A stretch of DNA of 64,000 nucleotides from an uncultured Eggerthellaceae bacterium (GTDB taxonomy: Bacteria > Actinomycetota > Coriobacteriia > Coriobacteriales > Eggerthellaceae). This document shows positions 24,084 through 54,761 of this stretch, one piece after another. Numbering within the stretch: the first letter of the stretch is position 1; the number at the start of each line of letters is the position of its first letter. The position numbers and the translations under genes are program-made. The stretch covers positions 1-64,000 of the forward strand of contig CALUHI010000016.1 in the NCBI GenBank assembly GCA_944320405.1, read 5' to 3'. The notes beneath the pieces are model-generated. The model was not told the DNA's origin and did no database searches. It saw only the letters and a list, made by a program, of their open reading frames with translations.

Positions 24084-32039
<7,956 letters not shown>

Positions 32040-34879: not shown

Positions 34880-37560
34880 TGGCGATCTTCCACGGCAGAG
34901 GGGTCTCGGCAACCGAGCGCAAGACGCGGCTCACTGAGAGCGAGCGCCGCAAGCGGCGCAAGCTCATGTGCGTCGTCACGGCGTTCTCGGTCGTCTTCCT
35001 CTACGCCTTCGCATGGCTTTGGTCGGGCCTTGTCGCCGTGGGCTTCGCGAACATCGACCTTCTGTGGCCGCGCCTCGCGTCCGATCCGTTCCCGTTTTTC
35101 TCCCTTGACGAGGAGACGCTTTCCGGCTGCCTGTGCTGGGGCGCGATCGGTTTTCTGATCCCGTGGGTCTACTACTCGATGTGGGTCAGAAAGCAGGGCA
35201 ACTACGATCCGGGCGCTGAGCACGGCGATTCGCGCCTCGCCATCGCGGAGGACTTCTCCGACATCACCGACGCGGAGCTTCCCTCCAACAACCTCAAGTT
35301 CACGACGCACGCCTGGATGGCGGTGTGTCCGCGCGGCAAGGAGCTGGCCCGCGCGATGACCGCGCTCAACCTCAACGCTCTTGTGATCGGCACCTCGGGC
35401 GGCGGCAAGACGTCGTCTTATGCTAAGCCGCTCATTGCGGCGAGCATGGGCACGAGGCTGTGCCCGGGCGGCGTCGGTCCTTCCGGCATCGCTGATGAAG
35501 GGTTCGATTTGGTGTTCACCGACACCAAAGGCGACGTGCTTCCCGACGTGGGGCACGCGCTCGTGAACTCAGGCGCAGATGTGCGCTGTTTCAACGTGCG
35601 CGATCCGGAAAACTCCGACAAGTGCAACCCGTTCGCAAGCGTGAACACCGCATACGTCGATGCCGTCAATCCCCACGGCGCGCCTGTCGTCTGCACGGCA
35701 AGCGTCGATGGGGAAAAGCTCTCCCTCGGCGTGAAGGAGGGCAAGCCGTGCGAGGAGCTTTCCGTCGCCATCGACGGCGAGACGATCACGCGGGCTGGAG
35801 CCGCCCCCGCCCCATCGGAGGATTGGCTCTGCCCGGTTTGCCATGCGCCCATGCCGGCGGAAGCCTCGCTTTGCGCTGATCCCGACTGCACCGGCCGCCG
35901 CCCGTTGACGGCAGATGCGGCGCTCGCCGTCTCGTTCGGAGCGAACTCGTTCGCGTCCGGCGACGTTCGCGGCGTGGCGTTGCGCGTGCGTCTGCGCAAT
36001 CGCGATCTTGCCGCGCGCAGCGTTCGCATCGAGTGCGTTTTGCCGCATGGCATGCGCTACACCTCCTCGCATCTGTGCGGCACCGACGAGGAGGCCGGCG
36101 AGCTTCTGCTCACCCCGGAAGGCCTTCCATGCCTGCGCTGGGACGTGGAGGCGGAAGCGGGCGCCGTGCTCGCTCTCGACGCGGTGGCGCTGGTCGACAA
36201 AGTCTGCGAGATTTCCGGATCGATGCTCACGCGCATCTGCTCCTGCATCGTGAGCAACCTCAACGCCACCGAAGACGGCGCGAAGGAAGACCCGTTCTGG
36301 TCGCGCTGCGCGACGACGCTGTTCCAGGGAGATGCGGGCCTTCTGCTCCAAGCATGGGGCAAAAAGGAATGCACGCTTCCCGGCGTCATGGACCTGGTGC
36401 TCTCCCAGCAGGTCGATCCGGCGGATGTCGGCAAGGACGCGGTCGATCTGATGATGGAGGCATGGGAGACCGGCTATCTGCCCAAGACCTCCGGAAAAGC
36501 CGGCTGGGGCGTCTCAAACGCAACCCAGGTTCCGTGCGACGTGCGCGACCTGTCGCCAATCGAGGTCCTTGACGACGGCTATTGGAAGCCCAAGCCCGAC
36601 CAGCGGTGGTTCGGCCCGCACAAGCGCTCGGAGGACCCGGCGCTTTCCGCCTACTTCACGTACCGCAAGGGCGCGGTTGAGACGCGCCAGTCGGTTCTGA
36701 TCACCTCCGCCGCGACGCTGTCCTCGCTCATGTCGCCCACGATGCGCCGCCTGCTTTCCGAGGACACGCTCAACCTCGACGCTCTCGGATCGGGGAACGG
36801 ATCGCATGTGCTGTCGATCATCAGCCACGACCAGGACAAGACGTACAAGCCCTTGATCGCGCTCGTTTTCTTCCTGACGCTCATGCGCCTTGACGAGAAC
36901 GCGACCAAGCTTCCCGGTGCGCGGCTTCCGCGCCCGGTGCACATCCTCGCGGACGAGTTCAAGAACCTTGGCAAGCTGCCCGAGATCGACGGGGCGCTTG
37001 CGACGGTGCGCTCCAAGAACGTGTCGGTGAGCATGTGCGTGCAGTCCATCGACCAGCTCGACGGCACTTACGGCGAGCACGTCGCCGCCGAGCTTCGCGA
37101 CAACTGCGCGACGATCGTTTTCATGGGCGGCTCGAACGAAAAGACCTTGAAGAGTTTCGAGACGCTTTCCGGCACCGAGACGATCGACATGATCCAGACC
37201 TCCCGCTCGTTCGGCACATCGGGACAGACGACGGAAAGCCGCCAGGCGGTGCAGCGCCCCGTCGTGAGCGTGGGGCAGCTTCGCACTTGCCCGCCCACGC
37301 ATGCCTACGTCCTGATGAAGGGCAAGAACGCCTTCAAGGACTGGAAGACGGGTTTTGGGGCATACGACTTCTACGAATGGTTCGATCCGGCGCGCGAGGA
37401 TCGCGGCTGCTCGAAGGGCAAGCGAAAGTTCACCGAGTACTTCGATTTCGCACGCTACAAGGCAGACCGCGACGCGGGGCGGGTTCCCTATGACTTCGAC
37501 GAAAGGCTCAAAGCGATGCCGGCGGCTTGGGTTCCGGCAGATGAAGGAAAGGAGGGTTGA
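34879..37560 (+). CDS. VirD4/TraG-type coupling ATPase with zinc-ribbon insert
   Basis: 893 residues. It links the relaxosome to the transfer channel and drives DNA export. Two N-terminal transmembrane helices lie at about 30-50 and 72-98. Walker A GTSGGGKT is at 171-178, Walker B HILADEF at 688-694 (D692, E693), and the C-terminal arm has MLVQS-like and NC-TIVFMGGSNEKTL segments. Between NPFASVNTAYVD and VDKVCEISGSML, about 175 residues (262-437) are inserted compared with ordinary VirD4. The insert contains a four-Cys zinc ribbon (C318, C321, C332, C337) and a beta-rich region after it. The start overlaps the preceding stop by 1 bp, and its stop overlaps the next start. Confidence 0.92.
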   Translation: MAIFHGRGVSATERKTRLTESERRKRRKLMCVVTAFSVVFLYAFAWLWSGLVAVGFANIDLLWPRLASDPFPFFSLDEETLSGCLCWGAIGFLIPWVYYSMWVRKQGNYDPGAEHGDSRLAIAEDFSDITDAELPSNNLKFTTHAWMAVCPRGKELARAMTALNLNALVIGTSGGGKTSSYAKPLIAASMGTRLCPGGVGPSGIADEGFDLVFTDTKGDVLPDVGHALVNSGADVRCFNVRDPENSDKCNPFASVNTAYVDAVNPHGAPVVCTASVDGEKLSLGVKEGKPCEELSVAIDGETITRAGAAPAPSEDWLCPVCHAPMPAEASLCADPDCTGRRPLTADAALAVSFGANSFASGDVRGVALRVRLRNRDLAARSVRIECVLPHGMRYTSSHLCGTDEEAGELLLTPEGLPCLRWDVEAEAGAVLALDAVALVDKVCEISGSMLTRICSCIVSNLNATEDGAKEDPFWSRCATTLFQGDAGLLLQAWGKKECTLPGVMDLVLSQQVDPADVGKDAVDLMMEAWETGYLPKTSGKAGWGVSNATQVPCDVRDLSPIEVLDDGYWKPKPDQRWFGPHKRSEDPALSAYFTYRKGAVETRQSVLITSAATLSSLMSPTMRRLLSEDTLNLDALGSGNGSHVLSIISHDQDKTYKPLIALVFFLTLMRLDENATKLPGARLPRPVHILADEFKNLGKLPEIDGALATVRSKNVSVSMCVQSIDQLDGTYGEHVAAELRDNCATIVFMGGSNEKTLKSFETLSGTETIDMIQTSRSFGTSGQTTESRQAVQRPVVSVGQLRTCPPTHAYVLMKGKNAFKDWKTGFGAYDFYEWFDPAREDRGCSKGKRKFTEYFDFARYKADRDAGRVPYDFDERLKAMPAAWVPADEGKEG

Positions 37561-38153: not shown

Positions 38154-38600
38154 ATGCTCACGCTGCCGATACAGAAGGACTTGGCCGATTACGAGCCCAA
38201 GGTCATAGGCAAGCTCACCAAGCGAACGCTCGTCTGCTCGGCATGCGCCATCGGCGCATCGCTTCTCATGGCGTTTTACCTCAACAGCGTCATCTGCGTA
38301 GGCATTGACGAATGGGGTTGGCTGGTCGTAATCGCCGCTTTGCCGTTCTGGGGCATCGGGTTTTGGAAACCCGACGGGATGCGCGCCGAGGAATGGCTTC
38401 CGCTGTGGGCGAAGCACGCGCTCGGAAAAGACGTCTTGATCTACCAGAGCGCATGGAAACGGGACGAGTTCGAAAAGGAGGTGGAGGATGTTCGGAAGAA
38501 AGAAAACGGCAAAGACGCCCGCCGCGCAGAGCGCGCCCTTGACGCAGTCTTCACCGGAGCAGGAGCTGAGCGCTTGCGCCCAAGCGACCTCCTTGGCTGA
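38154..38600 (+). CDS. PrgI family (VirB3-like) conjugation protein
   Basis: 148 residues. The N-terminus LPIQKDLADYEPKVIGKLTKRTL is the PrgI pattern, followed by two transmembrane helices (about 24-45 and 50-70) and FWKPDGMRAEEWL. PrgI is the VirB3-like partner of VirB4 at the inner face of the channel. The charged C-terminal tail overlaps the first 113 bp of virB4 in another frame. The ribosome site of virB4 (AAAAGGAGGTGGAGG) is inside this gene, so translation of the two is coupled. Confidence 0.85.
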   Translation: MLTLPIQKDLADYEPKVIGKLTKRTLVCSACAIGASLLMAFYLNSVICVGIDEWGWLVVIAALPFWGIGFWKPDGMRAEEWLPLWAKHALGKDVLIYQSAWKRDEFEKEVEDVRKKENGKDARRAERALDAVFTGAGAERLRPSDLLG

Positions 38601-41346
38601 TACCGCTGGACTGGGCACCCTTGACGCGACCGCCCTCTCGGCGTTCGCGCCTTCCGAAGCGCTCGGCACGCCTGTCGACAAGAAGGAGCGCAAACGGCTG
38701 ATGCGCGAGGCGAAAGCGGAGAAGCGGCGACTGGCCAAAGAGGAGCGCGAAATGCGCAAGACGTCGCAGGCCGCCGACATCCAACGCCAGCTCAAAGCGC
38801 GCGACAAGCAGCTCCAGCAGCGGCACCGCGCCGCGAAGCGCGCCCGCGCCATGAGCGACGACGTTCTCGGATGGCTTCCATGGGACGCGATATTCTCCGA
38901 CGGCACGTGCGTTGTGGTCCAGCCGAAGAAGAACGGCATCGGGCTTTACAGCGAGACCATCGAGTTCGACGACATCTCCTACCAGACGGCGCGCCGCACC
39001 GATCAGGAAATGGTGTTCGACCGCATGTGCGGCCTTTTGGAGGAATACGGCCCCGACAAGTCGATCCAGTACACCGTCTGGAACGAGCCGGTCGCCATCG
39101 GGCGGCTCGACACGGATTTCTTCGATGTCGAAGCGCAGCCCGAACAACTTGCTCCGTACGCGGCCGAGGCCAACGCGGTCATCGAGCGCAAGATGGCCGA
39201 AGGAAAATCAACGCTTCGTCGCCGTCGTTTCGTGACGTATTCGACTGGCGCGTACTCCCTTGCTGACGCGGTGCGAAGCCTCGCCTCGATGCGAACGAAG
39301 GTGTCCGACGCGCTCGGCGAGATCGGAGCCGGCACGCACCTTCTCGACGGTGCGGCGCGCGCCGCCGCAATCGCTCGCCTTTTGCGCCCGGACACGCCGT
39401 TCGACTTTTCTTACGAGCGCGACATCACCGCCGAGAACGGCCTCACGGTGAAGGATTTCGTCGCCCCGCAAGTGATCGACTTCAAGGCTTACAACAACAC
39501 GCGCGACGACACGTTCTTCGTCGTCGATGGCAAGACGTTCGGGCAGGTGCTCGTCGTCCGCACGATCACGCGCCTTACCGATTCCGCTTTCGCATCCATC
39601 GTCGATCTGCCGATCCCGCTTGCGGTGACGTGGCATCTGCAAGGATGGGACCAGGCCAAAGCGCTTTTGTTCGCCGCACAGCGGAGCAACTGGATCGACG
39701 CGGAGATAATCTCCGAGCAGCAAAGCGCGCTGCGGCGCGGATACGACGGCTCGATCGTGCCGTATGCGCTGTCGCATTCGAAAGCCGAAGCGCGCGAGGT
39801 GCTTGACGGCCTGGAGAACCGAGGCCAGAACCTCTACGACTTCACAGCGCTTATCTGCACGTGGGCTGACTCGATCGGCGAGCTTACCGATCAGGCTGTT
39901 CAGATCATCGACACGGCGCGCGCCCATGGCCTCGTCGTGGAGGTTCTGCCCAAACGCCAGCGCCAAGGCCTCTCTTCGATGCTTCCGGTCGGCGCGAACT
40001 CGGTGGAGGTGTCTCGCCTTCTCAACACTGCGCAGTGCGCACTGCTTTCGCCTTTCGCCACAGCGGAAAGCTACATGGTGCCGGGACGAGAGTACATCGG
40101 CGTGAACAAGCTTTCCAACAACCCGGTCGGCATCGACATCAAATCGCTCAAGAATCCGAGCGGGCTTGTTTCCGGCAAGCCGCGCAGCGGCAAGAGCTTC
40201 GCCGTCAAGCAGCTCATCATGTCGGTCATCATGGGCCATCCGCCCATCGAGGCCGCCAAGGCTCCGCGTGACTGCCAGAAATGCGGATGGCTCGGAATCA
40301 CCGAGGCGGACGCCTGCCCCAAGTGCGGCGCAGAGCTTCCCGAGGCGATGGCGGACCAGATCATCATCCTGGACCCCGCAGCCGAGTACGAGCCTTCAAC
40401 CGAGGCGGCGGGCGGGCGCGTGTTCCGCATGATGGCCGGCACGGACACCCACTTCAACCTGTTCGCGGTCAACGGCGCTGAGAAGGACGGCGTGGACGAG
40501 CGCGTGATGGCGCAGAAGATCAGCGCCGTCTGCGCGTTCACCGCCGCCATGGCGCACGAGGCGGGAGCTGCGCTTTCCGACGAGGAGCGCTCGATCATCA
40601 CGCGCTGCGTGTCGCAGGCTTACGAGGATGCGGGCGCGCGCGGCGAGGTGCCGATCCTGCAGGACTTCTACGAATCGCTCAAGCGCCAGCCCGAGGACGT
40701 GGCCCAGCGCTTGGCGCTCCGCTACGAGCGTTTCGTCACCGGCCCGAACAGCTTCCTCAACCACCAGAGCAACGTCGATTGGGGACGCCGCGTGATCGAC
40801 ATGTCGATCAAGGACTTGCCCGACGACATGCGCACGCCGGTTCTGATCGCCGAGCTTGAGGCTGTGCGCCAGCAGGTGTTCCACAACTTCGATCGCGGCA
40901 TCACGACGTGGCTGTTCGTGGACGAGCTGCAATCGCTTCTGCGCCACCAGGAGGTCGTCGACTACCTGACGCGTTTCTGGAGCGAGCTGCCGAAGTTCAA
41001 CCTGATCGCCATCGGGATCGTTCAGAACGCGAACCTGATCGCGAAGAACCGTTCGACCGCGACCATCGCGGCGAACTCGGACTTCTGCCTGCTGTTTGCG
41101 CAAAGCGCTGAGGACGCCGAGGCGTGGGCAAGGCTGAAGGGGCTTTCGGAGTCCGAGCTGAAGCACATCGACGAGACCGTGAAGCCCGGCGAGGGACTTG
41201 TTCTCGCAGGCAAGCTCCACATCCCCATTCGCGGCGAATGGCCGCAGGGCCTCATGTACGACCTGATGAACACCAAGGCAAGCGAGGTGGCGGAAAAGAA
41301 GCTCAAGGAGCGCTTCGAAGCCGCCCGGAAGGGATTGACGAATTAG
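38488..41346 (+). CDS. VirB4-type conjugation ATPase with zinc-ribbon insert
   Basis: 952 residues. It energises assembly of the transfer channel at the membrane. The N-terminal 130 residues are Ala/Lys/Arg-rich. The VirB4 N-domain (about 140-520) is followed by the RecA-like motor: Walker A GKPRSGKS at 563-570, Walker B TWLFVDELQSLL with D812-E813, and FWSELPKFNLIAIGIVQN. Directly after the Walker A helix there is a four-Cys zinc ribbon (C596, C599, C610, C613) that ordinary VirB4 lacks, before IIILDPAAEYE. The coupling protein has a comparable insert. ATG 38488 has a strong SD and overlaps prgI by 113 bp. Confidence 0.92.
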   Translation: MFGRKKTAKTPAAQSAPLTQSSPEQELSACAQATSLADTAGLGTLDATALSAFAPSEALGTPVDKKERKRLMREAKAEKRRLAKEEREMRKTSQAADIQRQLKARDKQLQQRHRAAKRARAMSDDVLGWLPWDAIFSDGTCVVVQPKKNGIGLYSETIEFDDISYQTARRTDQEMVFDRMCGLLEEYGPDKSIQYTVWNEPVAIGRLDTDFFDVEAQPEQLAPYAAEANAVIERKMAEGKSTLRRRRFVTYSTGAYSLADAVRSLASMRTKVSDALGEIGAGTHLLDGAARAAAIARLLRPDTPFDFSYERDITAENGLTVKDFVAPQVIDFKAYNNTRDDTFFVVDGKTFGQVLVVRTITRLTDSAFASIVDLPIPLAVTWHLQGWDQAKALLFAAQRSNWIDAEIISEQQSALRRGYDGSIVPYALSHSKAEAREVLDGLENRGQNLYDFTALICTWADSIGELTDQAVQIIDTARAHGLVVEVLPKRQRQGLSSMLPVGANSVEVSRLLNTAQCALLSPFATAESYMVPGREYIGVNKLSNNPVGIDIKSLKNPSGLVSGKPRSGKSFAVKQLIMSVIMGHPPIEAAKAPRDCQKCGWLGITEADACPKCGAELPEAMADQIIILDPAAEYEPSTEAAGGRVFRMMAGTDTHFNLFAVNGAEKDGVDERVMAQKISAVCAFTAAMAHEAGAALSDEERSIITRCVSQAYEDAGARGEVPILQDFYESLKRQPEDVAQRLALRYERFVTGPNSFLNHQSNVDWGRRVIDMSIKDLPDDMRTPVLIAELEAVRQQVFHNFDRGITTWLFVDELQSLLRHQEVVDYLTRFWSELPKFNLIAIGIVQNANLIAKNRSTATIAANSDFCLLFAQSAEDAEAWARLKGLSESELKHIDETVKPGEGLVLAGKLHIPIRGEWPQGLMYDLMNTKASEVAEKKLKERFEAARKGLTN

Positions 41347-43247: not shown

Positions 43248-44096
43248 ATGAGAACCATGGATACGTTGAAGGAAATGCTCAGGAACGTGAAGCCGTTGCC
43301 GGTTGCGCTTGCCGCCGCAGCGATCCTGCTTGTCGTGGGGCTCTCCGTTGCGCGATGCACGGCAGTGCATGCGCCTGAGCCGGTCGAAGAAGGGGCCCAG
43401 CAGGGCCAATCAGCAGGAACGGTGGGCACGGCGGCAGCCTCAAGCGTCGAACTCACGCAAGAGCAGTCTGACCTTATCGCCTCCTATTCCGCCGAAGAAC
43501 AGGAGCTTATCGACATCCTGGCAGCGAACGTGTGGACCTCGCAGCGCGAAACCTTGACGCTCACGTTCACACGCGATTCGTTCAGCGAATCGGCTGGCGA
43601 CGGGCAAACCGCAACGCGCACCTTCGCGATTTCGGCGGTCGAGGAAGAGACCGTTGAGGAAACCGGTGCGAACGGCGAGAAATCCCAAACCACGACCCGC
43701 ACGGCCGCGATTCTCACCGACGCAGGCACGTACTTCCTCAAGCTTAATCAGTTCGTCTCGATGGATGGGAGCCCCGACATGTGGTCTGTCGTTTCCGAGG
43801 CGTTCGAGCTCAGCGATTCATACGTTTTGGACGAGGCGTCCAAGGAGCTGTCGGTCCCCGACATGGATGAGGGATTCGCATCGCTGATCGACGGCCGCAC
43901 CGATGTTTTGAAGCAACGGCTCTCCGATTACTGCGCCCAGTTCTACCCCACCGCCAGCGCGATGGAATGGAGCGGCGAGGCTTCGGTGGACTGGAACGAC
44001 CATCTGGTTTCCACGACGTTCACGCTCGACAACACCGCAGCGTCGACCGTCAACGTCACCTACAACACCGAGTCCGGCGAGTTCACGATCGGATAG
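43248..44096 (+). CDS. Membrane-anchored conjugation protein, possibly VirB8-like
   Basis: 282 residues. There is a single transmembrane helix at about 17-37, a Gln/Ala-rich linker, and two extracytoplasmic beta-rich segments (about 80-170 and 205-282). Single-helix anchoring plus external NTF2-like domains is the architecture of VirB8/TcpC proteins, and the operon position between the hydrolase and the VirB6-like gene fits. No lipobox is present (Arg precedes the Cys). No sequence motif proves the family. The start is ATG 43248 or 43257. Confidence 0.45.
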   Translation: MRTMDTLKEMLRNVKPLPVALAAAAILLVVGLSVARCTAVHAPEPVEEGAQQGQSAGTVGTAAASSVELTQEQSDLIASYSAEEQELIDILAANVWTSQRETLTLTFTRDSFSESAGDGQTATRTFAISAVEEETVEETGANGEKSQTTTRTAAILTDAGTYFLKLNQFVSMDGSPDMWSVVSEAFELSDSYVLDEASKELSVPDMDEGFASLIDGRTDVLKQRLSDYCAQFYPTASAMEWSGEASVDWNDHLVSTTFTLDNTAASTVNVTYNTESGEFTIG

Positions 44097-44104
44097 GAGG
44101 GATG

Positions 44105-45118
44105 ATGGGTTTGCAGACAAATAAGGCTTTCCAGGTGCTTGCCGCCAACCGCGTCTTCCACATCGCTGCGCTTGTCTCGTTGTGCGCCATCGCCGCTTTC
44201 GGCACCGTTTTTGCCCTTCCTTCCTCCGCGCACGCGGCAGGTTTGTTCGACATCCCTGGCCAGATCACCGAATGGCTTTTGAACGACATCTTGAAGCCTC
44301 CCCTGGAAGCCATGCTGTCAGGCGCTTGGAACATCATCGGGATGATCGCCGAATCGACCATCCTCACCGCACCGTTCGATGCGATGCTCGGCTCAGGCGG
44401 CTATTCGGTGTTCAATTTGGCTGACGACGTGAACGACACGCTCGTCAAGCCCATCGCGCTTTCCATCCTTGCGCTTGCGATGCTCGTCCAGCTGATCCAC
44501 GTTGCCGGCAAGGCCGACCAGGACGCCGCGATGCCGATTCTGCGCGATCTCGTTCTGATCGCGCTGTTCTACGTGTGCTTCCGTTGGCTGATCAACAACT
44601 CGGCCGATCTGTGCGTGGCGGTCTACACCGACCTCAACGCCATCACCGCCGGCATCGCTGACGCGCCGACGCTCAACAGCAGCAGCGTCGCAATCGGACA
44701 GCTCACCAACATCGGCCAGGTCATCACGATGCTCTTAGTCATCGCCATCGTCTACCTCATGGCGCTTGGCGCCGCTGTCGTGACGATCGTCATGGCTTAC
44801 ATGCGCGCGTTCCAGCTCTACGTGTTCGCAGCGTTCGCGCCGATCCCGCTAGCGCTTCTCGGGTTCGAGCAGACAAGGCAGTACGGCATCGGCTTCATCA
44901 AGAACTTCGTCGCTCTTGTGCTCGCCGGAGCCGTGATGGTGTTTCTTCTGTACTGCTTCCCCCTTCTTGTGAACGCAGGTTTGTCTACGGGGCTGTTCGG
45001 CACGAGCTGGACCCCGGGATCGTTGCTCGGGCCCGTGACGATGATCGCGCTTTGCCTGCTTCTCATCATCGGAATGCTCAAGTCCGGTTCCATCGCACGT
45101 TCGGTTCTTGGAGAGTAA
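44105..45118 (+). CDS. VirB6/TrbL-like polytopic conjugation protein
   Basis: 337 residues. It begins with a hydrophobic signal-like segment ending at SSAHA-AG. It then has about six transmembrane helices, with a soluble loop between helix 1 and 2 (DIPGQITEWLLNDILKPPL). The C-terminal helix is followed by a short basic tail. The FAPIPLALLGFEQTRQYGIGFIKNF segment is typical of TrbL/VirB6 in Gram-positive elements. It is the central membrane pore protein of the T4SS. ATG 44105 is 4 nt after AGGAGG; the adjacent ATG at 44102 is too close. The stop is 10 bp before ardA. Confidence 0.82.
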   Translation: MGLQTNKAFQVLAANRVFHIAALVSLCAIAAFGTVFALPSSAHAAGLFDIPGQITEWLLNDILKPPLEAMLSGAWNIIGMIAESTILTAPFDAMLGSGGYSVFNLADDVNDTLVKPIALSILALAMLVQLIHVAGKADQDAAMPILRDLVLIALFYVCFRWLINNSADLCVAVYTDLNAITAGIADAPTLNSSSVAIGQLTNIGQVITMLLVIAIVYLMALGAAVVTIVMAYMRAFQLYVFAAFAPIPLALLGFEQTRQYGIGFIKNFVALVLAGAVMVFLLYCFPLLVNAGLSTGLFGTSWTPGSLLGPVTMIALCLLLIIGMLKSGSIARSVLGE

Positions 45119-45128
45119 GGAGGATGCG

Positions 45129-46793
45129 ATGTCCATATCGGTTTGCATCGGGAACTACGGGTACTACAACGAGGGAGAGCTGCGTGACGCGTGGATCGAG
45201 CTTCCCAAAACGCAGGAGCAGATCGACGGGTTCTTGGAAGAGCACGGGCTTCGCGACGCACAGCACGAGGAAACCTACATTTCGGACTACGACGGCATCC
45301 CGTTCGGGCTGCCTTATGGCAACGCGTTTTCCGAGTTCACCCCCCTTGACGACCTCAACCTCCTTGCGAAGAGAATGGATGACCTGTCTGAGCACGACAT
45401 CGAAAAGCTGACCGGCGCGTTCGCGGCAGGTTACGAGACCCCTGATTCGATCATGGAGATTTTGAACATCATCGATCAGGTCGATGAGCTGCCGTTCTTC
45501 CCTTGGCCCGACGACCTTTCCTATAAAAACGACGAAGAGCGCCTGGGGTACGCCATCGCAGATAAGCTCGGAGGGATCGAGCATCTGGACCGCAAAACGC
45601 TGGAATCGCATTTCGACTACGAGGGGTACGGCCGCGAGCTCGACCACTCCGGGTTCACGCTTGGCAAGGAAGGGTTTTTGGACTCCGGCATCGCGAATGT
45701 GCGCGACGGGCTCTACGATGCCGAAGAGATCGTCGAAGAGGCGGCGGCACGCGGGGTGGACGCGACGCTTGGCGACACCCCCGCAGAAGCAGCCAAGCGG
45801 CTTTTGTCCTACCTGGCCGCGTTCGAGTTCGTCGGTTTCGAAGCCGATTTGGAGAGCGACCCGCAGCTCATCGTCGCCGTCGGCAGCATGATCGAGGACT
45901 TGGACGATTCTGAGCGCGAAGCGCTGAGCCTGTATTCGAACCATGCCTCTTTCGGCCTTGGCGTCGAAGAGATCGGCAACATCGTCATGCAGGTCGACGA
46001 CATCAGATACCACCCGTATGCAGCCGATGCCGGCTCGCCCCACGAGCGCCTTGGCGAAACAGTCGTGGGTTGGGATGGCGGGATCTCCGGCGTCCCGCGT
46101 GAGGAGCTTGAACGGCATTTCGACTTCGAGGCGTACGGACGAGCCCTGGCAAACAACTTCTTCATGGGTCCTGGCGGCTATTTCGACGCCGTCGCCGACC
46201 TTCCTGACCGCAACCGTTTCTCCTGCGAAGAGCTGACCGAAGCGATCGAAGAGCGGTGGGCCGCATCGCAGGAGGCTCCATCGGCTGAGCGGACCCAAAG
46301 TCCCATTGCGCAGGCGCACGGCATCGGAGGCCCCAAGATAACGGGACATGAGCCGATCGAGAAAACCGGTTATTTGGGGCATGAGGCTTACAGCTACCCC
46401 GCCGCCGACAACCCGCACGGACGTTTCGCGTTCGCCACGAAAGAAGAGAGCCAGGCGGCGATGGAGCGCGACTTCAAAGCGCTCGATTCGCAGCTCCATG
46501 CGTTCTGCCATGACGCGGACGCCCCGCTCGCGTTCGGCTCGCCTGAAGAGCAGTTCCATGCCATGCGCACCCTCGCCGCCTGGCATGGAGGTGGCGAGCA
46601 GACGCCGGAGCTCAAAGACGCGATATGGGTGCGCGAGCTCGACGTGAAGGATGCGATGGCTGACCGCGGCCTGTTCTGGAACGCGACTCGCGGCGTGATA
46701 GGGCCTATGAAGGCGACGGACGATCCCGGCATGCCTTCGTATCCAGCGCCGTCGCGCAGCAGCGTCGCGCGGGCCAAAGGCGCGTCGCGCTAG
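45129..46793 (+). CDS. ardA: ArdA-type antirestriction protein with duplicated domain
   Basis: 554 residues, about three times a standard ArdA (about 165). Residues 1-190 are a complete ArdA: IGNYGYYNEGELRDAWIEL at the N-terminus, then DDLNLLAKRMDDL, and the C-terminal subdomain ERLGYAIADKLGG...LESHFDYEGYGREL. About 225-350 repeats the middle and C-terminal subdomains (ERLGETVVGWDGG...LERHFDFEAYGRAL). The last 180 residues are of unknown type with a C-terminal basic tail. ArdA mimics DNA with its acidic surface and blocks type I restriction when the element enters a new host. It has SD AGGAGG with 5-nt spacing. Confidence 0.88.
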   Translation: MSISVCIGNYGYYNEGELRDAWIELPKTQEQIDGFLEEHGLRDAQHEETYISDYDGIPFGLPYGNAFSEFTPLDDLNLLAKRMDDLSEHDIEKLTGAFAAGYETPDSIMEILNIIDQVDELPFFPWPDDLSYKNDEERLGYAIADKLGGIEHLDRKTLESHFDYEGYGRELDHSGFTLGKEGFLDSGIANVRDGLYDAEEIVEEAAARGVDATLGDTPAEAAKRLLSYLAAFEFVGFEADLESDPQLIVAVGSMIEDLDDSEREALSLYSNHASFGLGVEEIGNIVMQVDDIRYHPYAADAGSPHERLGETVVGWDGGISGVPREELERHFDFEAYGRALANNFFMGPGGYFDAVADLPDRNRFSCEELTEAIEERWAASQEAPSAERTQSPIAQAHGIGGPKITGHEPIEKTGYLGHEAYSYPAADNPHGRFAFATKEESQAAMERDFKALDSQLHAFCHDADAPLAFGSPEEQFHAMRTLAAWHGGGEQTPELKDAIWVRELDVKDAMADRGLFWNATRGVIGPMKATDDPGMPSYPAPSRSSVARAKGASR

Positions 46794-46835
46794 GGAGCTG
46801 ATGGATGGACGGACGGATCGGGAAGGAGGAAGGCT

Positions 46836-48695
46836 ATGCCAAACGAACGGATCCCGCACGCAACCGAGGCGCTTTTCGAGCGGTACTTGAGGCTTGACGC
46901 AGAAGAGCTTGCTGCGGCTGCGGAGGCGGCCCAAGACGAGCTTGAGCGCTTGGAGGCGATCGCCGACAGCCCGCGCCGCGCAGGCGCGCGCGTCGATGCT
47001 GAGGCGCTGAACGCCGCCTTCATCGAAAACGGCGCGGCAGCGTTCGCCGAGGCCATCCAGCGCGCGCAGACCGCAAGCAGCGGCGATTACGGCGCTCTCG
47101 CGCTGCAAGGCGCGCTCTACGGCATTCCCGCCACGTTCGACCAGCTCCTTTCCCGTTGCCAGAAAGAGCCGCTTGAGAGGCTTCACGGCATCATCGAGGG
47201 CGTGGAGGTATGGAGGCGGCGATTCGGGGAGGTCGGGCAGGCGACGTTTCGGGCGGGGACGCTTGAGCTGGCGTCGCTCGTCGCCAACGCAGATGGTGCG
47301 ATCGCGTCGGTCGAGGCAATGCTTCGCGCCGAGCGCGCGCGAAGGCTCTCCGCCGCAGACGGTGCGGCCGAGGGCAAATCCGAGCGAAACCGCGCGCGCC
47401 GCGCGAAAGAGCAGCTGGCCCTCATCCCCGAGGTCCGCGAAGAGTACGCCAACGCCGCCTTGACGGTCGCGTCGCATCCTTGGATCGCGGAGCGGATGGG
47501 CTACGGCGCAGAAAACGCCGTGCCCGTGCTCGCGCGCAAGGGCGTTGTTCCCAAGGAATTCACGGCACGCGCGTACGAGCGCGCGCTTGCGCAGGCGGCC
47601 GAGCCTGAAGAGGTCGAGGCGCTGATGGAGGGAATGGCCGACATCGATGCTGGCGGCATCCAAGCAGATGAAAAGGAGGACGTGAAGGAAGTGCTGGTCG
47701 AACAGAGAAGCGAGGCTCCGGCAGCTATCCCAAGCCAGGTGGACGACGCACGAGAGACTGCCGCTAACGAGGCGAAGGATGAGACGGCGGCGAGGGACGC
47801 GTTGATCGGCACCGGCGCTTCACCGGCACCTGGAGCGGGAAGGTCTGCTGAGGACGGCGGGGCGAAGGACGGCGAGACGGTCGCCGCAGCTGAGCAAGAG
47901 CCTTTGAGGGCCGGAGAGCGCCGGTTCGCGCGGATGCGCTTTTCGGCTGACGCGGTCCACCCCTACGAGACCAAGCCCAACGACAAAGGGGAGGTCTTCT
48001 CCAAAGCGGTCGTAAACCTGCCTGACGGGACCGCCATCGACGGGCGGTCCCTTGACGGGTACTCGGCCGACACGTTCTTGCGCGACTTCCACAAAGAGGC
48101 GCTTGCCATGGGCGAGCCGGTCGTGCTCGGTTGGCCTGCGGATCGGCCGGTGAGGCTGTTCGCGAAGGGAAAGCCGGCAGTGGAGGCCGACCCTTGGAAA
48201 CTCGCAAGCGCGGTGAAGGCCGCGCGCGAAAACGCCGTCGCCCCGGCTGCTTCCGAGCGCGAGGCGCAGCGCGTGGCGGTGAAGGTGCCCGCTTCTTGGG
48301 CGGTTGGGACGTTTACGACAAAACCCAACGCCGAAGGAAAGCGCTTTGACATGGTCCGCATCGCCATGCCGGCGGGCATGGAGGTGGCGGGGCAGGCGCT
48401 TGATGGGTTTACGTTCGCGACGTTTTTGCGCGACTTCCACAAGGAAGCGCTCGCGGATGGGCGCGATCTCGTCTTCCGGTTCGACGAGACCGAACCCGTC
48501 CGGCTCACCGACAAGGAGGGCACGGTCATCGAGGCGAACCCTTGGTCGCTCACGTGCGCCGTGAAGGCGGCGCGGGAGGGATTCGCCAAGGAGGCGGCAA
48601 CCTCCGGCAAGAGCGCCGATGCGGCACGGGAGGTCGCACGCGCCATCGCCAAAGGAGACGCTGCGCCCGTCGCAGCCAAAAGCGTGAGCTTGTGA
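46836..48695 (+). CDS. Conjugative-element protein with two copies of an unrecognised domain
   Basis: 619 residues, no known family recognised. The N-terminal part (1-280) is alpha-helical and Ala/Glu/Arg-rich. After a low-complexity linker (about 280-360), two copies of a domain of about 95 residues follow (about 368-465 and 475-575). They share RF/RV...P-G---G--L-G(Y/F)---TFLRDFHKEAL and EA(D/N)PW-L--AVKAARE. The protein has no signal or membrane helix. The following gene has a third, divergent copy. SD GGAGG is present. Possible roles include binding DNA or protecting transferred DNA, but nothing proves this. Confidence 0.6.
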   Translation: MPNERIPHATEALFERYLRLDAEELAAAAEAAQDELERLEAIADSPRRAGARVDAEALNAAFIENGAAAFAEAIQRAQTASSGDYGALALQGALYGIPATFDQLLSRCQKEPLERLHGIIEGVEVWRRRFGEVGQATFRAGTLELASLVANADGAIASVEAMLRAERARRLSAADGAAEGKSERNRARRAKEQLALIPEVREEYANAALTVASHPWIAERMGYGAENAVPVLARKGVVPKEFTARAYERALAQAAEPEEVEALMEGMADIDAGGIQADEKEDVKEVLVEQRSEAPAAIPSQVDDARETAANEAKDETAARDALIGTGASPAPGAGRSAEDGGAKDGETVAAAEQEPLRAGERRFARMRFSADAVHPYETKPNDKGEVFSKAVVNLPDGTAIDGRSLDGYSADTFLRDFHKEALAMGEPVVLGWPADRPVRLFAKGKPAVEADPWKLASAVKAARENAVAPAASEREAQRVAVKVPASWAVGTFTTKPNAEGKRFDMVRIAMPAGMEVAGQALDGFTFATFLRDFHKEALADGRDLVFRFDETEPVRLTDKEGTVIEANPWSLTCAVKAAREGFAKEAATSGKSADAAREVARAIAKGDAAPVAAKSVSL

Positions 48696-48714
48696 AGAGA
48701 GGAGGAATCCGGCA

Positions 48715-49206
48715 ATGGATGATCGCTTGAAACCGGGCGACGAGGCCAGGAAGAAGATCGAGTTCGTGAGCGTGCCGGCCGCTTCGGTCGCGCGCTTCTA
48801 CGCGTTCGCCAACGAAGGGGGCATGGGCCCCATCGAAGAGCGGGCGAGCGTTTTGATCCCGACCGGCACGAAGCTCGATTCCGGGTTCAATCTTTCCGGC
48901 TTTTCGTTCTGGACGGCGCTTTTCGACGAGACCCGCGAGGACATCGCGCGCAAGCGCCCGTTCGTGAGGATCGGGTTTGCAGGAACGACAAAGACGCTCA
49001 GCCGTCCTGACGGGTCGAAGGTGCGCATCGCCAACGACGAGCTTTGCGAGCTGTTCAAAAAGCTCTTCAGTGACGATGCGCATGGCGCGCCTGGAAGGGC
49101 GAGGAACGGAAGCAAGAGAAGCCCTTCGCGCGGCGGCGGCCGGGGCGGAGGGCGGAAAGGAGGTGCGCAGGCAGGAGCGAGAAACAGCCGACAGGCGGCG
49201 CGATAA
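48715..49206 (+). CDS. Single-domain relative of the preceding protein with basic Gly/Arg tail
   Basis: 163 residues. Residues 15-125 resemble one copy of the repeated domain in the preceding protein: VSVPAASVARFY..., SVLIPTGTKLDSGFNLSGFSFWTALFDETREDIA, then RPDGSKVRIANDELCELFKKLF. The last 38 residues are Arg/Lys/Gly/Ser (RGGG-type), suited to nucleic-acid binding. Together with the upstream gene this forms a two-gene family. SD GGAGG is 9 nt upstream. Function unknown. Confidence 0.6.
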   Translation: MDDRLKPGDEARKKIEFVSVPAASVARFYAFANEGGMGPIEERASVLIPTGTKLDSGFNLSGFSFWTALFDETREDIARKRPFVRIGFAGTTKTLSRPDGSKVRIANDELCELFKKLFSDDAHGAPGRARNGSKRSPSRGGGRGGGRKGGAQAGARNSRQAAR

Positions 49207-49235
49207 GCGCCATTGAGGATAGAGAGGATAAGAAC

Positions 49236-52200
49236 ATGCAAAGAATCAAAGAAAGGATGATCGCAAGCAAGGCGGCGCGCGTGCTGTTCGCCGCGCTGCT
49301 CGCCATCGGGCTTGTGCCCACGGCGACGCTGGCGCAGCCGCAGACGGCGGAGGCTGCCGGCACTTGCTACGTTCAAAAAGGCGATTGGATCTACTACTCC
49401 AACAACCGCACGAACGATTTCAGCATCGACGGCGAGATCGGCTACTGCGTGGAGCCTGACAAGGTCGGCCCGTCGACCGGGACGTACTCCACCAGCGAGC
49501 TTCAGCCGTACAGCGGCGGCAACACCGTTGCGACCTGGCAGGTACTTTATTTCGGGTACGGCGGGCCTGGCTACCAGCAGGGCTTGGATTCAGGGCTGTG
49601 GCCTGCGACAGACATTTTCGGTCGCCCCATGAGCAATGAGCTTCGCCAGGCCTGCACCCACATCATGCTCGCGGAAACCTACACCGGCTCGGCGGAGCAG
49701 GCGCTCGCCAAATGCGAGTTCTCGTTCACCAACTGGGCGAAGAAGAACATCCTGTACGGCGGATCGGGCAATCCCAACACGGAAACCGGGATCAGGAACC
49801 TCGCTAATTCGATGGGGCTCACCTCCGTTCAGGCGTTCCGCGACATCGGCTTCAACGCGTTCCAGGTCAACCCGAACAACGGCCGCCAGATCGTCGTGAG
49901 CTACACCTACAACCCCGGCGGTTACGTCGGCGTCGACAAGGACAGCTCGAACACCGATCTGACCGACGGCAACGCGCTTTACTCGCTCGCGGGAGCGCAG
50001 TACGGCGTATACGGCAGCTGGGACGATGCCAACAACCGCGCCAACGCGAAGGCGACGCTTACCACCGATGCCGAAGGCAGGGCGACAAGCGACCTGCTTC
50101 CGATGGGCACCTACTACGTCCGCGAAACCAAGGCTTCTACCGGTTACGCCCTTGACGACACGATCTATTCCGTTTCCGTCACGTCCGGCCAAACGACGTG
50201 GGCCGGCACGGGCGGCAAGGTCTACGATGCGCCGCAGAACGACCCGACGGTTATGTGGGTCGGCAAGATCGACCTTGAGACGACTCAGAACATGCCGCAG
50301 GGTTCCGCATCGCTTGCCGGGGCCGAGTTCACGGTCCGCTACTACGATGGACAGTACGGCACCGTCGAAGCGGCAGAGGCGTCCGGTGCTCCCACCAGGA
50401 CGTGGGTGGTGAAGACCAACGAACAAGGTGGAGCCATCCTTGACGAGGCATTCCTGGTGTCAGGGGATGATTTTTATACAAATTCAAACGGCACACCCAC
50501 CATTCCTCTTGGCACGGTTCTCATTCAGGAAACGAAGGCTCCGGAGGGGTACCTGCTTCCCGATCCGGCGCCGGTCTACGTGCGCAACGTGACCACTGAT
50601 GGAATTCTGGAATCCGTTGAGGTTTACAACGCGCCCACCCAGCCTGAAGAGGTCATGCGGGGCGGGGTCGTGATCCAGAAGACGGATGCGGAGACGGACG
50701 GCGATGCCCTTGGCTCCGCAACGCTTGAGGGTGCGGTGTTCCGCATCGTGAACGAGTCGGCCAACTCCGTCGTCATCGACGGCACAGAGGTCGCGCCTGG
50801 CGGCACCATCGTCGACATCACCACCGACGAGGGTGGCTACGCCAATACGCGCACCGACCTTCTCCCCTACGGCGACTACTCGGCAACCGAGATCGTCGCA
50901 CCTGACGGGTACCTGGGCACTGACGCGAAGGTGGAGTTCTCGATCACCGCTGACAAGCAGATCGTCGAGCTCTACGGAGACCAGGGTTTCCAGAACCAGG
51001 TGAAGCGCGGCGACCTTGAGTTCGGCAAGAAGGACGAGGCTTCCGGCACGTCCATGGCCAACATCCCGTTCAGAATCGCTTCCGAGACGACCGGCGAGAG
51101 CCACGTCATCGTGACGGATGCGAACGGCCAGGCCTCCACGGCCGCGAGCTGGAACGCGCACAGCACCGACACCAACGGCAACGACGATGCCGTTGACGGC
51201 GAGTACGACAGCGAAAGCGGCATCTGGTTCGGCGTCGACGCCGGCGCTGCCGTCGACGATTCGCTCGGCGCGCTGCCTTACGACACCTATACGCTCGAAG
51301 AGCTGCCGTGCCTGGCGAACGCCGGCCGCGAGCTGATCGAGCAGACCGGCATCGTGATCTCCCGCAACAACGTGACGGTCGATCTCGGCACGCTTGACGA
51401 CATCACGCCCGCGATCTCCACGACCGCGACGGATGCGGCCGACGGCGACAAGACGGTGGCCATGGGCCAGAGCGCCAAGGTCATCGACCGCGTTTCCTAC
51501 TCCGGCCTCGTTCCGGGAGACACCTACACGCTCAAGGGCTACATGGTGCTCACCGGCAGCGCCGAGCGCCTTGAGTTCGCAGGCGAGGCGGTTGAGGCGT
51601 CCGTCGAGTTCTCTCCTACCGCTCCTGCCGGCACCGTAGAGGTCGTCTTCGACCTTTCTGGCACGGTCGGCCTTCTGCCCAACGCCGAGGAGTTCAACGC
51701 CACGGTGTACGAAGAGCTTTACAAAGACGGCAGGCTGATGGCCGAGCACAAGGTGCTTGAGGACAGCGGCCAGACCGTGCGCTTCGTCTCCCCCACCCTC
51801 GGCACGGTCGCCGTTGACGGCATCGACGGCGACAAGGTGATCGCCACCGACACGGCTGCTAACATTTCCGACACTGTCAGCTACCGCAACCTTGAAGAGG
51901 GCGCGCAGTACAGGATCGTCACCGCTGCGGTCGCCTACGATAAGGCGAGCGAAGTGACGGCCGACAACATTTCCGCCGCGCTCGGCACCTCCGAGGCGAC
52001 GTTCACCGCACAGGAGGGCTTCGGCACTGTCGAGACCTCGGTTGCCTTCGATGCGACCGCCCTTGATGACGGCGCGAAGGTCGTCATCTTCGAATGGGTC
52101 TACGATGTCGCCGGCAACCTGGTTGCCGTGCATGCGGATGCTGAGGCAACCTCTCAGGCCGTCACCATCGAGCGTCCCGTGATCGGCACGACCGCGTCTG

Positions 52201-54761
52201 ATGCGGCCGATGGCGACCAGGAGCTGGTTGACGACGGCAGCCGCGAAGTCTCCATCATCGACATCGTGTCCTTCGACAACCTGATTCCGGGGCGCGAGTA
52301 CTCCGTCACCGGCATGCTGATGGACAAGACCACCGGCGATGCAGTGAAGGATGCCGAGGGCAATCCCGTCACTTCCACCGTTGCGTTCACGCCTGCGGTT
52401 TCCTCCGGCACGGTTGAGGTGCCCTTCACGTTCGATCCGTCAGCCATCCCGACCGGTGGCGAGGTCGTCGTGTTCGAGAACCTTTGCCTTGACGGCGTGG
52501 AAGTGGCCGTGCATGCCGACATCGACGATGCGGGCCAGACCGTCATCGTGACGCGCGCCGAGATCGGCACGACCGCGACTGACGCGGTTGACGGCGACAA
52601 ATACCTCGTGACCGATCCGGTCGCAACCATCAACGACAGCGTCCTCGTCCAGGGCGTCATCGCCGGCGAGGAGTACACCGCCATGGGCATCCTCATGGAC
52701 GCCGAGACCGGCCTGCCCTTCATCCAGGGCGAGGCCAGCGAAGCCGACATCGAGGCTGTCAGCGCTTGGTGGTCCGAGGTCAAGGCGGCCCTTGGCATGG
52801 ACGGCGAGAATCCCGCCATGCCCGCATCCATTGACGCGGCAGCCCTTGAGGCGCTGATGGCAGAGGACATCGCTTCGCGCGTGGTTTGCGGTGATTCGGC
52901 GTTCACGCTGAACGACGACTGGGGTACGGTTGACGTGGCCTTCGGCCCGTTTGACGCAAGCCAGCTTGAATCGGGTGATCGTCTCGTGGTCTTCGAGGCC
53001 GTTGCCAACATGGAAGGCTCGCTCGTCGTCGCGGTGCATGCTGACATCGTCGACGAGGGCCAGACCGTGACCGTTACCGAACCTGGCATCGGAACGACCG
53101 CTGTTGACGGGCTTGACGGCGACAAGAACGTAGTCGGCGATCCTGAGACGACCATCGTTGACACCGTCGAGTACTCCAACGTCATTCCTGGCCGCACCTA
53201 CTCTTTGACCGGCACGCTCATGGTCAAGAGCACGGGCGAGGCAGTGACGGATGCTGAGGACAACCCCGTGACCGCAACCGTCGAATTTGTGCCCGAGCAT
53301 GAGAGCGGCACGGTGGACGTCAAGTTCGGCCCGTTCGACAGCTCGCAGCTGATCGGGGACGCCATCGTGGCGTTCGAGACGCTTTACGCTGACGGCGTCG
53401 AGCTTGCGATCCATGCCGACATTGAAGACGCCGATCAGACGGTTGAGGTGACGGCCCCTGCCATCGACACCGTTGCCGTTGACGGCGTTGACGGCGATAA
53501 GGAGGTCGTCGTTGACCCCGAGGCGAAGATCGTTGACACGCTTTCCTACACCAACGTCGTTCCCGGCGAGTACACCGCGCACGCGATCCTGATGGACGCC
53601 GAGACCGGTCTTCCGATGCTGTTCGGCGAGGGCGCGGCTGAGATCACCGAGGTCGAGCTTCGCGCGTTCTGGAACAACCTGGTCGAGCTGATCGACGTGC
53701 AGCGCGTCGAGCCGGCTGACGAGGGCACCGAAGAGGGCGCTGAAGGTTCCGAGGGTGCCGACGAGGGCTATGAGACCGTCCTTCCCGATGACAGCTCCAT
53801 CGCGACGATCATCGAGCTTGCAAGCGAGCTTGAGGGTGCTGGCGAGGGCACCGAGAGCGACGAGTCCGGCGACGCTGCGGCGGATGATGGCGCTGAAGAG
53901 GGCGCTGAAGAGGAGGGCCAGGAGAGCGATCTTCCGGTCATCCCGACCGTTGCCGACTGGGACGGCGTGATCGACCTGCTTGAGAAGAACCCGGTCATCG
54001 CCGAGGCCATCGCGTTCGACATCGTCCAGTTCGATGCCGAGGCGGCTGCTGGCGAGGTCCAGGCGGACTTCGGCATCGATGCGAGCGGCCTTGCCGGCAA
54101 GCAGGCGGTCGTGTTCCAGGTGCTCACCCGCGCCGATTCCAACGGCACCGAATGGACGGTTGCCGCGCACGACGCCATCGACGACGCCGACCAGACGGTC
54201 GACATCGTGGCGAGCGAGATCGGCACCGAGGCCACCGACAAGACCGATGGCGACCATGAGGTAATGAACTCCGCCACGGCTGTGGTGGTTGACACCGTGA
54301 CCTACACCAACCTGATCCCCGGCAAGGAATACGAGCTGAAGGGCCAGCTGATGAACAAGGAGACGGGCAAGGTCCTGATCTCCAACGACAAGCCGGTCGA
54401 GGCTTCCGTGACGTTCGTCCCCAACACCCCCGACGGCACCGTTCAGCTTGAGTTCGCGTTCGACGCGACGGCCCTTGAGGGCGCTGAGCTGGTGGCGTTC
54501 GAGCATCTGTACAAGGACGGCATCGAGGTTGCAACCCATGCCGATATCAACGATGCGGCTCAGACCGTCAAGGTGACGGCTCCGCCCATCGGCGACAAAT
54601 ACGCCAAGGCGGGCGTCGATCTGATGCCGATCGTCGCTGGCGCCGCCGTTGCGGCGGTCGTCGGCGGCAGCCTGATCGCCTACGGCATTCGCCGCAAGGC
54701 CGTGGATGGCGCAGCTGAGGCTGCGGCTGTCGAGGCCGCAGAGGGCAAGGACGCCGAATAG
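49236..54761 (+). CDS. Large surface adhesin with thioester-like domain, SpaA-type and seven VaFE repeats
   Basis: 1841 residues. A signal peptide (1-40, ending about QTAEAA) leads to a thioester-domain-like region: YCVEP with C71, and a RQACTHIMLAE segment where a Gln is usual. SpaA/prealbumin-like domains follow (about 235-720) with ETKAS-GYAL and ETKAPEGYLLP E-box motifs. Seven VaFE/T-Q-ester repeats start near 727, 856, 983, 1110, 1286, 1410 and 1662, each with (I/L)-T-A-D--DGD and ending D-DA-QTV. Repeats 4 and 6 have long inserts; that of repeat 6 is very acidic. The end has a transmembrane helix and basic tail after KYAKAG, a non-LPXTG sorting-like site. Probably a cell-wall adhesin with ester-linked stalks. 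Confidence 0.85.
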   Translation: MQRIKERMIASKAARVLFAALLAIGLVPTATLAQPQTAEAAGTCYVQKGDWIYYSNNRTNDFSIDGEIGYCVEPDKVGPSTGTYSTSELQPYSGGNTVATWQVLYFGYGGPGYQQGLDSGLWPATDIFGRPMSNELRQACTHIMLAETYTGSAEQALAKCEFSFTNWAKKNILYGGSGNPNTETGIRNLANSMGLTSVQAFRDIGFNAFQVNPNNGRQIVVSYTYNPGGYVGVDKDSSNTDLTDGNALYSLAGAQYGVYGSWDDANNRANAKATLTTDAEGRATSDLLPMGTYYVRETKASTGYALDDTIYSVSVTSGQTTWAGTGGKVYDAPQNDPTVMWVGKIDLETTQNMPQGSASLAGAEFTVRYYDGQYGTVEAAEASGAPTRTWVVKTNEQGGAILDEAFLVSGDDFYTNSNGTPTIPLGTVLIQETKAPEGYLLPDPAPVYVRNVTTDGILESVEVYNAPTQPEEVMRGGVVIQKTDAETDGDALGSATLEGAVFRIVNESANSVVIDGTEVAPGGTIVDITTDEGGYANTRTDLLPYGDYSATEIVAPDGYLGTDAKVEFSITADKQIVELYGDQGFQNQVKRGDLEFGKKDEASGTSMANIPFRIASETTGESHVIVTDANGQASTAASWNAHSTDTNGNDDAVDGEYDSESGIWFGVDAGAAVDDSLGALPYDTYTLEELPCLANAGRELIEQTGIVISRNNVTVDLGTLDDITPAISTTATDAADGDKTVAMGQSAKVIDRVSYSGLVPGDTYTLKGYMVLTGSAERLEFAGEAVEASVEFSPTAPAGTVEVVFDLSGTVGLLPNAEEFNATVYEELYKDGRLMAEHKVLEDSGQTVRFVSPTLGTVAVDGIDGDKVIATDTAANISDTVSYRNLEEGAQYRIVTAAVAYDKASEVTADNISAALGTSEATFTAQEGFGTVETSVAFDATALDDGAKVVIFEWVYDVAGNLVAVHADAEATSQAVTIERPVIGTTASDAADGDQELVDDGSREVSIIDIVSFDNLIPGREYSVTGMLMDKTTGDAVKDAEGNPVTSTVAFTPAVSSGTVEVPFTFDPSAIPTGGEVVVFENLCLDGVEVAVHADIDDAGQTVIVTRAEIGTTATDAVDGDKYLVTDPVATINDSVLVQGVIAGEEYTAMGILMDAETGLPFIQGEASEADIEAVSAWWSEVKAALGMDGENPAMPASIDAAALEALMAEDIASRVVCGDSAFTLNDDWGTVDVAFGPFDASQLESGDRLVVFEAVANMEGSLVVAVHADIVDEGQTVTVTEPGIGTTAVDGLDGDKNVVGDPETTIVDTVEYSNVIPGRTYSLTGTLMVKSTGEAVTDAEDNPVTATVEFVPEHESGTVDVKFGPFDSSQLIGDAIVAFETLYADGVELAIHADIEDADQTVEVTAPAIDTVAVDGVDGDKEVVVDPEAKIVDTLSYTNVVPGEYTAHAILMDAETGLPMLFGEGAAEITEVELRAFWNNLVELIDVQRVEPADEGTEEGAEGSEGADEGYETVLPDDSSIATIIELASELEGAGEGTESDESGDAAADDGAEEGAEEEGQESDLPVIPTVADWDGVIDLLEKNPVIAEAIAFDIVQFDAEAAAGEVQADFGIDASGLAGKQAVVFQVLTRADSNGTEWTVAAHDAIDDADQTVDIVASEIGTEATDKTDGDHEVMNSATAVVVDTVTYTNLIPGKEYELKGQLMNKETGKVLISNDKPVEASVTFVPNTPDGTVQLEFAFDATALEGAELVAFEHLYKDGIEVATHADINDAAQTVKVTAPPIGDKYAKAGVDLMPIVAGAAVAAVVGGSLIAYGIRRKAVDGAAEAAAVEAAEGKDAE

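Follow-up and report, generated by a model that had tools for sequence, protein, structure and literature searches.

A sequence that occurs three times in two adjacent genes of a conjugative element from an uncultured Eggerthellaceae bacterium is, on sequence grounds, a protein domain of about 110 aa that is named in none of the databases searched (Pfam, NCBIfam, PHROGs, PADLOC and PDB sequences). We describe here the family to which the domain belongs, the predicted fold of its members, the fixed slot that its genes occupy in transfer operons and the C-terminal tails that its members share with neighbouring proteins. From these observations we infer that the domain may bind nucleic acid (ssDNA), and that it may be recruited to the conjugative secretion machinery and delivered, or translocated, through it.

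The copies lie in a stretch of 64,000 nucleotides (hereafter the window; positions 1 to 64,000 of contig CALUHI010000016.1), where the two genes that bear them are laid out as follows.

46836..48695, + strand: P0001, 619 aa; an open frame whose ATG directly follows an AGGAGG-type ribosome site
aa 1-354 of P0001: N-terminal part, acidic (pI 4.7), Ala-rich, probably helical
47916..48236, + strand: domain copy A, aa ~361-467 of P0001 (from hmmsearch envelopes)
48258..48581, + strand: domain copy B, aa ~475-582 of P0001 (from hmmsearch envelopes)
48582..48692, + strand: C-terminal tail of P0001, ...ARAIAKGDAAPVAAKSVSL
48715..49206, + strand: P0002, 163 aa, consisting of domain copy C and an Arg/Gly-rich tail
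48739..49083, + strand: domain copy C, aa ~9-124 of P0002 (from profile matches)
49069..49203, + strand: Arg/Gly-rich basic tail of P0002, with a pI of 12.0 over the last 45 aa

Ribosome sites are good for both P0001 and P0002, and the intergenic gaps measure 19-42 bases. The domain copies are approximately neutral in charge. The N-terminal part of P0001 showed a marginal likeness to one 630-aa ORF only (E about 1e-3).

Far from lacking significant similarity, copies A and B are clear duplicates at the sequence level: their local alignment scored 218, against a mean of 26.5 and a maximum of 50 in 1000 shuffles. The alignment of A with C scored 63 (shuffle maximum 58, so that 0 of 1000 reached the score), and that of B with C scored 52, a value reached by 1 of 1000 shuffles. 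As these last two are weak when taken alone, copy C was tested with profiles from which it had been excluded. It was recovered at E = 3e-4, in a search of the whole genome, by a profile that combined A and B with two outside relatives; at Z = 10,000, two profiles made without C gave it values of 0.0014 and 0.0098, against 24 and 4.6 for the best hits among 200 and 800 shuffled controls, respectively. When the profile was built from outside relatives only, with A, B and C all left out, it still matched all three copies at Z = 10,000, with values of 1.2e-9 for A, 1.5e-8 for B and 0.0098 for C. The shuffles, together with the profiles that held no window copies, ruled out a chance repeat, and by the same comparisons copy C is a divergent relative of A and B. 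An earlier note on this DNA had proposed exactly this arrangement, with two copies in the gene at 46836 and a divergent one in the gene at 48715, and had described the Arg/Gly-rich end of the third copy; the shuffles, the profiles without C and the composition of the P0002 tail bear it out. It had also reported two patterns as common to all three copies. The first (PxGT...dG..L.G[YF].F) is indeed present in A, B and C, but the second (PW.L..AVKAAR) is well held in A and B only and is loose in C (RIANDELCELFKK).

Neither P0001 nor P0002 gave anything above chance level in Pfam, NCBIfam, PHROGs or PADLOC, and their relatives were likewise without a known-family match. PDB sequences contained no match for P0001 or for the family profile, and no relative of the domain was found in plasmid records, in phage records or in two viral-contig scans. 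Models for ArdA and ArdC matched neighbouring proteins only, not P0001 or P0002, and the SSB family was absent from all family matches of the domain proteins. These null searches ruled out assignment to a known family. The view that the family is new and nameless is thereby upheld, in that Pfam searches of P0001, P0002 and their relatives brought up no known DUF, and neither PDB sequences nor folds provided a significant match.

Structure prediction, which had been proposed as a check, gave a confident AlphaFold2 model of copy B (pLDDT 92.2), with seven strands and two helices, and a comparable one of a stand-alone member from Bifidobacterium merycicum (L039; pLDDT 93.0). In both models the predicted domain is mostly beta and has a long helix at its C-terminus. 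Among solved structures there was no significant match to either model (best Z 2.7, Foldseek E at least 0.049), nor did predicted viral proteins yield a significant structural match to copy B. The low-scoring list for copy B contained SSB, PriB and LEF-3 (Z 2.1-2.7) as well as eIF5A, and that for the Bifidobacterium member contained Pur-alpha/Whirly (Z at most 2.7). Because the two lists lean different ways, one towards OB-like folds and the other towards Pur-alpha/Whirly, we claim no fold for the domain, and the SSB, PriB, LEF-3 and Pur-alpha entries, obtained from predicted models, bear on nucleic-acid binding as a hint only. The domain resembles SSB (an OB-fold protein), PriB, LEF-3 and PUR/Whirly through weak structure-comparison entries, and differs from all of them in having no sequence match and a Z of at most 2.7.

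As hints of nucleic-acid binding we counted these fold lists, the RGG-like tail of P0002 and a short C-terminal ending, D[IVL][PA]F, which was searched for after one case had already been seen. In all the DNA fetched, the ORFs with this ending were three family members and one SSB-like protein, and no others. The three members (at L075, L079 and L144) end in DIPF or DIAF and in this acidic tip are like SSB; most other members, and the window copies, are unlike it in that they carry no such ending. Given that no solved structure matched significantly, the argument for nucleic-acid binding is built from weak hints, and on the strength of sequence and models together we consider that the domain probably binds nucleic acid.

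Single-protein searches found few relatives, and a profile in which A and B were joined by two relatives opened up a large set of stand-alone proteins. This link between subfamilies was found in both directions, with a profile-profile probability of 96.6 (E 5e-10). The usual member is a single-domain, stand-alone protein of 150-200 aa. Members occur in 66 of the 396 Coriobacteriia genomes sampled and in 38 of their 153 genera (searched with a 30-row alignment); when the whole phylum was sampled, every clear match fell within the window's own taxonomic order. A scan of 84,980 species genomes, aimed at proteins closely related to the stand-alone form, recovered 43 loci; most came from Coriobacteriia, and Bifidobacterium, Varibaculum and Arcanobacterium contributed one each. 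With such a spread, the family can no longer be called small, as the earlier note had it. One genome (G327) has a lone domain gene (L088:9800-10360, minus strand) that lacks a tag and is surrounded by apparently ordinary chromosomal genes, conjugation genes being absent from its vicinity.

The genes that surround P0001 and P0002 in the window are the following.

34097..34879, + strand: uncharacterised gene just before virD4, with the tail ...AEAIARNRSVPAPELSRSVSR
34879..37560, + strand: VirD4-type coupling protein gene (PF02534, 2.4e-37)
38488..41346, + strand: VirB4 ATPase gene of the CD1110 family (NF045971, 601.9 bits, cut-off 325)
43967..45118, + strand: VirB6/TrbL-like membrane protein gene (weak Pfam TrbL match), upstream border of the slot
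45108..46793, + strand: ArdA antirestriction protein gene, with two ArdA stretches (PF07275, E = 1.6e-27)
49236..54761, + strand: large surface/pilin-like protein gene, downstream border of the slot

The VirD4 of the window is a clear VirD4 by Pfam, although it scored 237.1 bits against the CD1115-family model NF045973, below the cut-off of 250. For the gene just before virD4, a PcfB/DUF3801 identity was considered and set aside, as it found no Pfam support. Host rpoB-rpoC genes precede the element, whose relaxase is encoded beyond the window, on the same contig at about 83-84.6 kb. The host RpoC (1471 aa; window 24084-28499, minus strand) is itself unusual, since it carries a fused match to the alpha-subunit C-terminal domain (PF03118, aa 1323-1374, E = 1.6e-9).

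The position of the domain gene is fixed across elements. A TrbL-like gene stands immediately 5' of it in 36 of the 38 loci of the 43-locus scan that had enough flank, and a large surface-protein gene (a homologue or one similarly large) immediately 3' of it in 37 of 39; these counts are per locus and do not represent independent events, the homologue sets being redundant between loci. In the window the same slot (45118-49236) holds ArdA, P0001 and P0002 between the TrbL-like and surface genes, in agreement with the earlier placement of the repeats between ardA and a pilus gene. P0002 adjoins the surface gene, which makes it the positional equivalent of the stand-alone member in other ICEs. 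At one locus (L083:8707-15942, partly N-masked), large surface-type ORFs follow one another, at least two of them with the same starting residues and three with near-identical ends.

That the gene is held in one slot of the transfer operon argues for a core role in transfer rather than for an optional counter-defence. The gene keeps strictly, and with tight spacing, to its place between virB6 and the adhesin gene, and this also speaks for a component of another kind, namely a cytoplasmic assembly or regulatory factor that belongs to the secretion machine or to adhesin production (e.g., one that partners VirB6 or the surface protein), would make no contact with DNA and would stay in the cell. 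The member at L144, which adjoins a pilin gene despite a rearranged gene order, fits such a factor, as does the failure of nucleic-acid-binding folds to give a significant match. Yet free-standing copies are found outside the slot in G100, G070 and G327, and some tails, described below, are common to the domain proteins and to anti-restriction and polyvalent proteins, so that we regard an assembly or regulatory role as unlikely.

The order ArdA, domain, domain is repeated in one other genome (G357, at L143), and in G070 and G154 ArdA is followed by a domain protein; ArdA is a recurrent partner of the domain, not the rule. Its adjacency in these three genomes and the window, the ArdC-type metalloprotease in G100 and the tails common to domain proteins and ArdA/ArdC-type proteins would all suit an anti-restriction or other anti-defence factor that acts with ArdA. 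In nearly all other elements, however, the domain gene is flanked by virB6 and the adhesin gene with no ArdA between them, the ArdA-adjacent forms are a minority, and neither PADLOC nor Pfam returned a match. A specifically anti-defence role, which the earlier note had put forward, is weakened rather than favoured by the fact that the domain usually adjoins VirB6/TrbL and a surface adhesin instead of ArdA, and we hold it to be distinctly unlikely; the DNA-handling role suggested alongside it is plausible, to judge from the sequence. The domain is like ArdA, ArdC and the polyvalent proteins of conjugative elements (PMC5512222) in that it is encoded beside them and in some elements has tails in common with them; it is unlike them in being another domain, with no Pfam match, and in usually forming a stand-alone gene of the transfer operon without an adjacent ArdA.

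The patterns that describe the tails were drawn by eye and then tested by their position and against control sequence. Tails of the stand-alone family follow the form L(A/D)xRAxxARxASxA. The pattern L[ASGD][DEQSGRK][RK][AV]..[AVT][KRT].[AGS][SA], taken from tails of domain proteins, was matched 50 times in 5571 unique six-frame ORFs, each of the 50 matches lying no more than 60 aa from the C-terminus, and its carriers belong to the domain family and to two unrelated families encoded near virD4. The tails are not a mere trace of duplicated proteins, because the bodies, minus their last 45 aa, show no similarity. The C-terminus of a 1996-aa SNF2 helicase/methylase protein, encoded directly after a domain gene (L145:4115-10105, minus strand, in G267), agrees with a looser version of the pattern; judging by its sequence, this methylase-helicase probably shares the tail of the domain family.

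Other elements carry other tails. In G100 the pattern sLDdLceeKxxEA matched 12 ORFs (L082-L084, G100:C2, + strand), each time 27-40 aa from the C-terminus, with no other match in the 59,617 residues of the element and none in 398,286 control residues. The carriers include an ArdC-type metalloprotease (MPTase-PolyVal), a stand-alone domain protein, a DUF3846 protein and several orphans. With window proteins as queries, the 80 kb retrieved from the G100 contig yielded no relative of the window VirD4 or VirB4. In G070 and G154 (L086 and L087), ArdA, the domain protein and one further gene have Ala-rich ...[KR]L tails ending in AAKL, APKL or GNRL; Ala-rich tails of the [KR]L type occurred in 0 of 1030 control ORFs. 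Tail similarity within the window is only suggestive: the tail of P0001 is weakly like that of the gene before virD4 (12 of 2000 shuffles reached the score, uncorrected for the 10 pairs compared), and the tails of the window ArdA and of P0002 matched none of the other window tails compared. The relaxases of these ICEs, which are certain substrates of the T4SS, end in Arg-rich tails, with no tag.

The sharing of tails between domain proteins and neighbouring anti-restriction proteins suggests that their carriers are sent along with the transferred DNA. Tails that are common to unrelated accessory proteins, yet differ from one element type to the next, are what would be expected of docking signals for the element's own coupling protein or relaxosome. 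Bacterial C-terminal degrons have Ala-rich ends, which the tail ends in G070 and G154 resemble; this resemblance and the untagged relaxases would be consistent with tails that serve as degradation or localisation tags, not as secretion signals, and that have nothing to do with the function of the domain. Such an explanation appears very improbable to us, given that each of the three tail types is confined to its own type of element, a pattern that fits element-specific docking and not host proteases.

We therefore return to the reading that we prefer, in which the domain protein is an accessory protein core to DNA transfer by CD1110-type conjugative elements in Coriobacteriia. It would be produced in the donor from the transfer operon, where its gene lies between virB6 and the adhesin gene, and would probably bind nucleic acid; its element-specific C-terminal tail would most likely recruit it to the VirD4 coupling protein or to the relaxosome, after which it would be loaded on, or travel with, the strand that is being transferred. 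The single gene would have turned, in the window, into three copies in two genes beside ArdA. As the D[IVL][PA]F pattern was chosen after one case, we rate this composite mechanism at a little under an even chance.

An F-type T4SS is known to translocate SSB, ParA, ParB and PsiB (PMC8406263), and the fate proposed here, the delivery of accessory proteins with DNA, would be analogous; in contrast, the system of the domain is a Gram-positive one of CD1110 type. The anti-restriction protein ArdC binds ssDNA, and the ArdC of R388 is needed through its expression in the recipient, not in the donor (PMC7213743), which calls for caution in assuming delivery. A bolder proposal, possible in our opinion although rather doubtful, is that Coriobacteriia conjugative elements put modular, element-specific C-terminal tags on a whole set of unrelated proteins (the domain protein, ArdA, the ArdC-type metalloprotease, the methylase-helicase and a dozen orphans). 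By way of the Gram-positive T4SS these proteins would reach the recipient, where they would guard and process the entering strand before any gene expression.

The domain gene represents a missing part of Gram-positive conjugation, nameless and fixed in its slot, across a class of gut bacteria. If the tails are secretion signals, sequence alone would list the proteins that Gram-positive elements send to their recipients, and protein delivery by Gram-positive systems would become directly testable.
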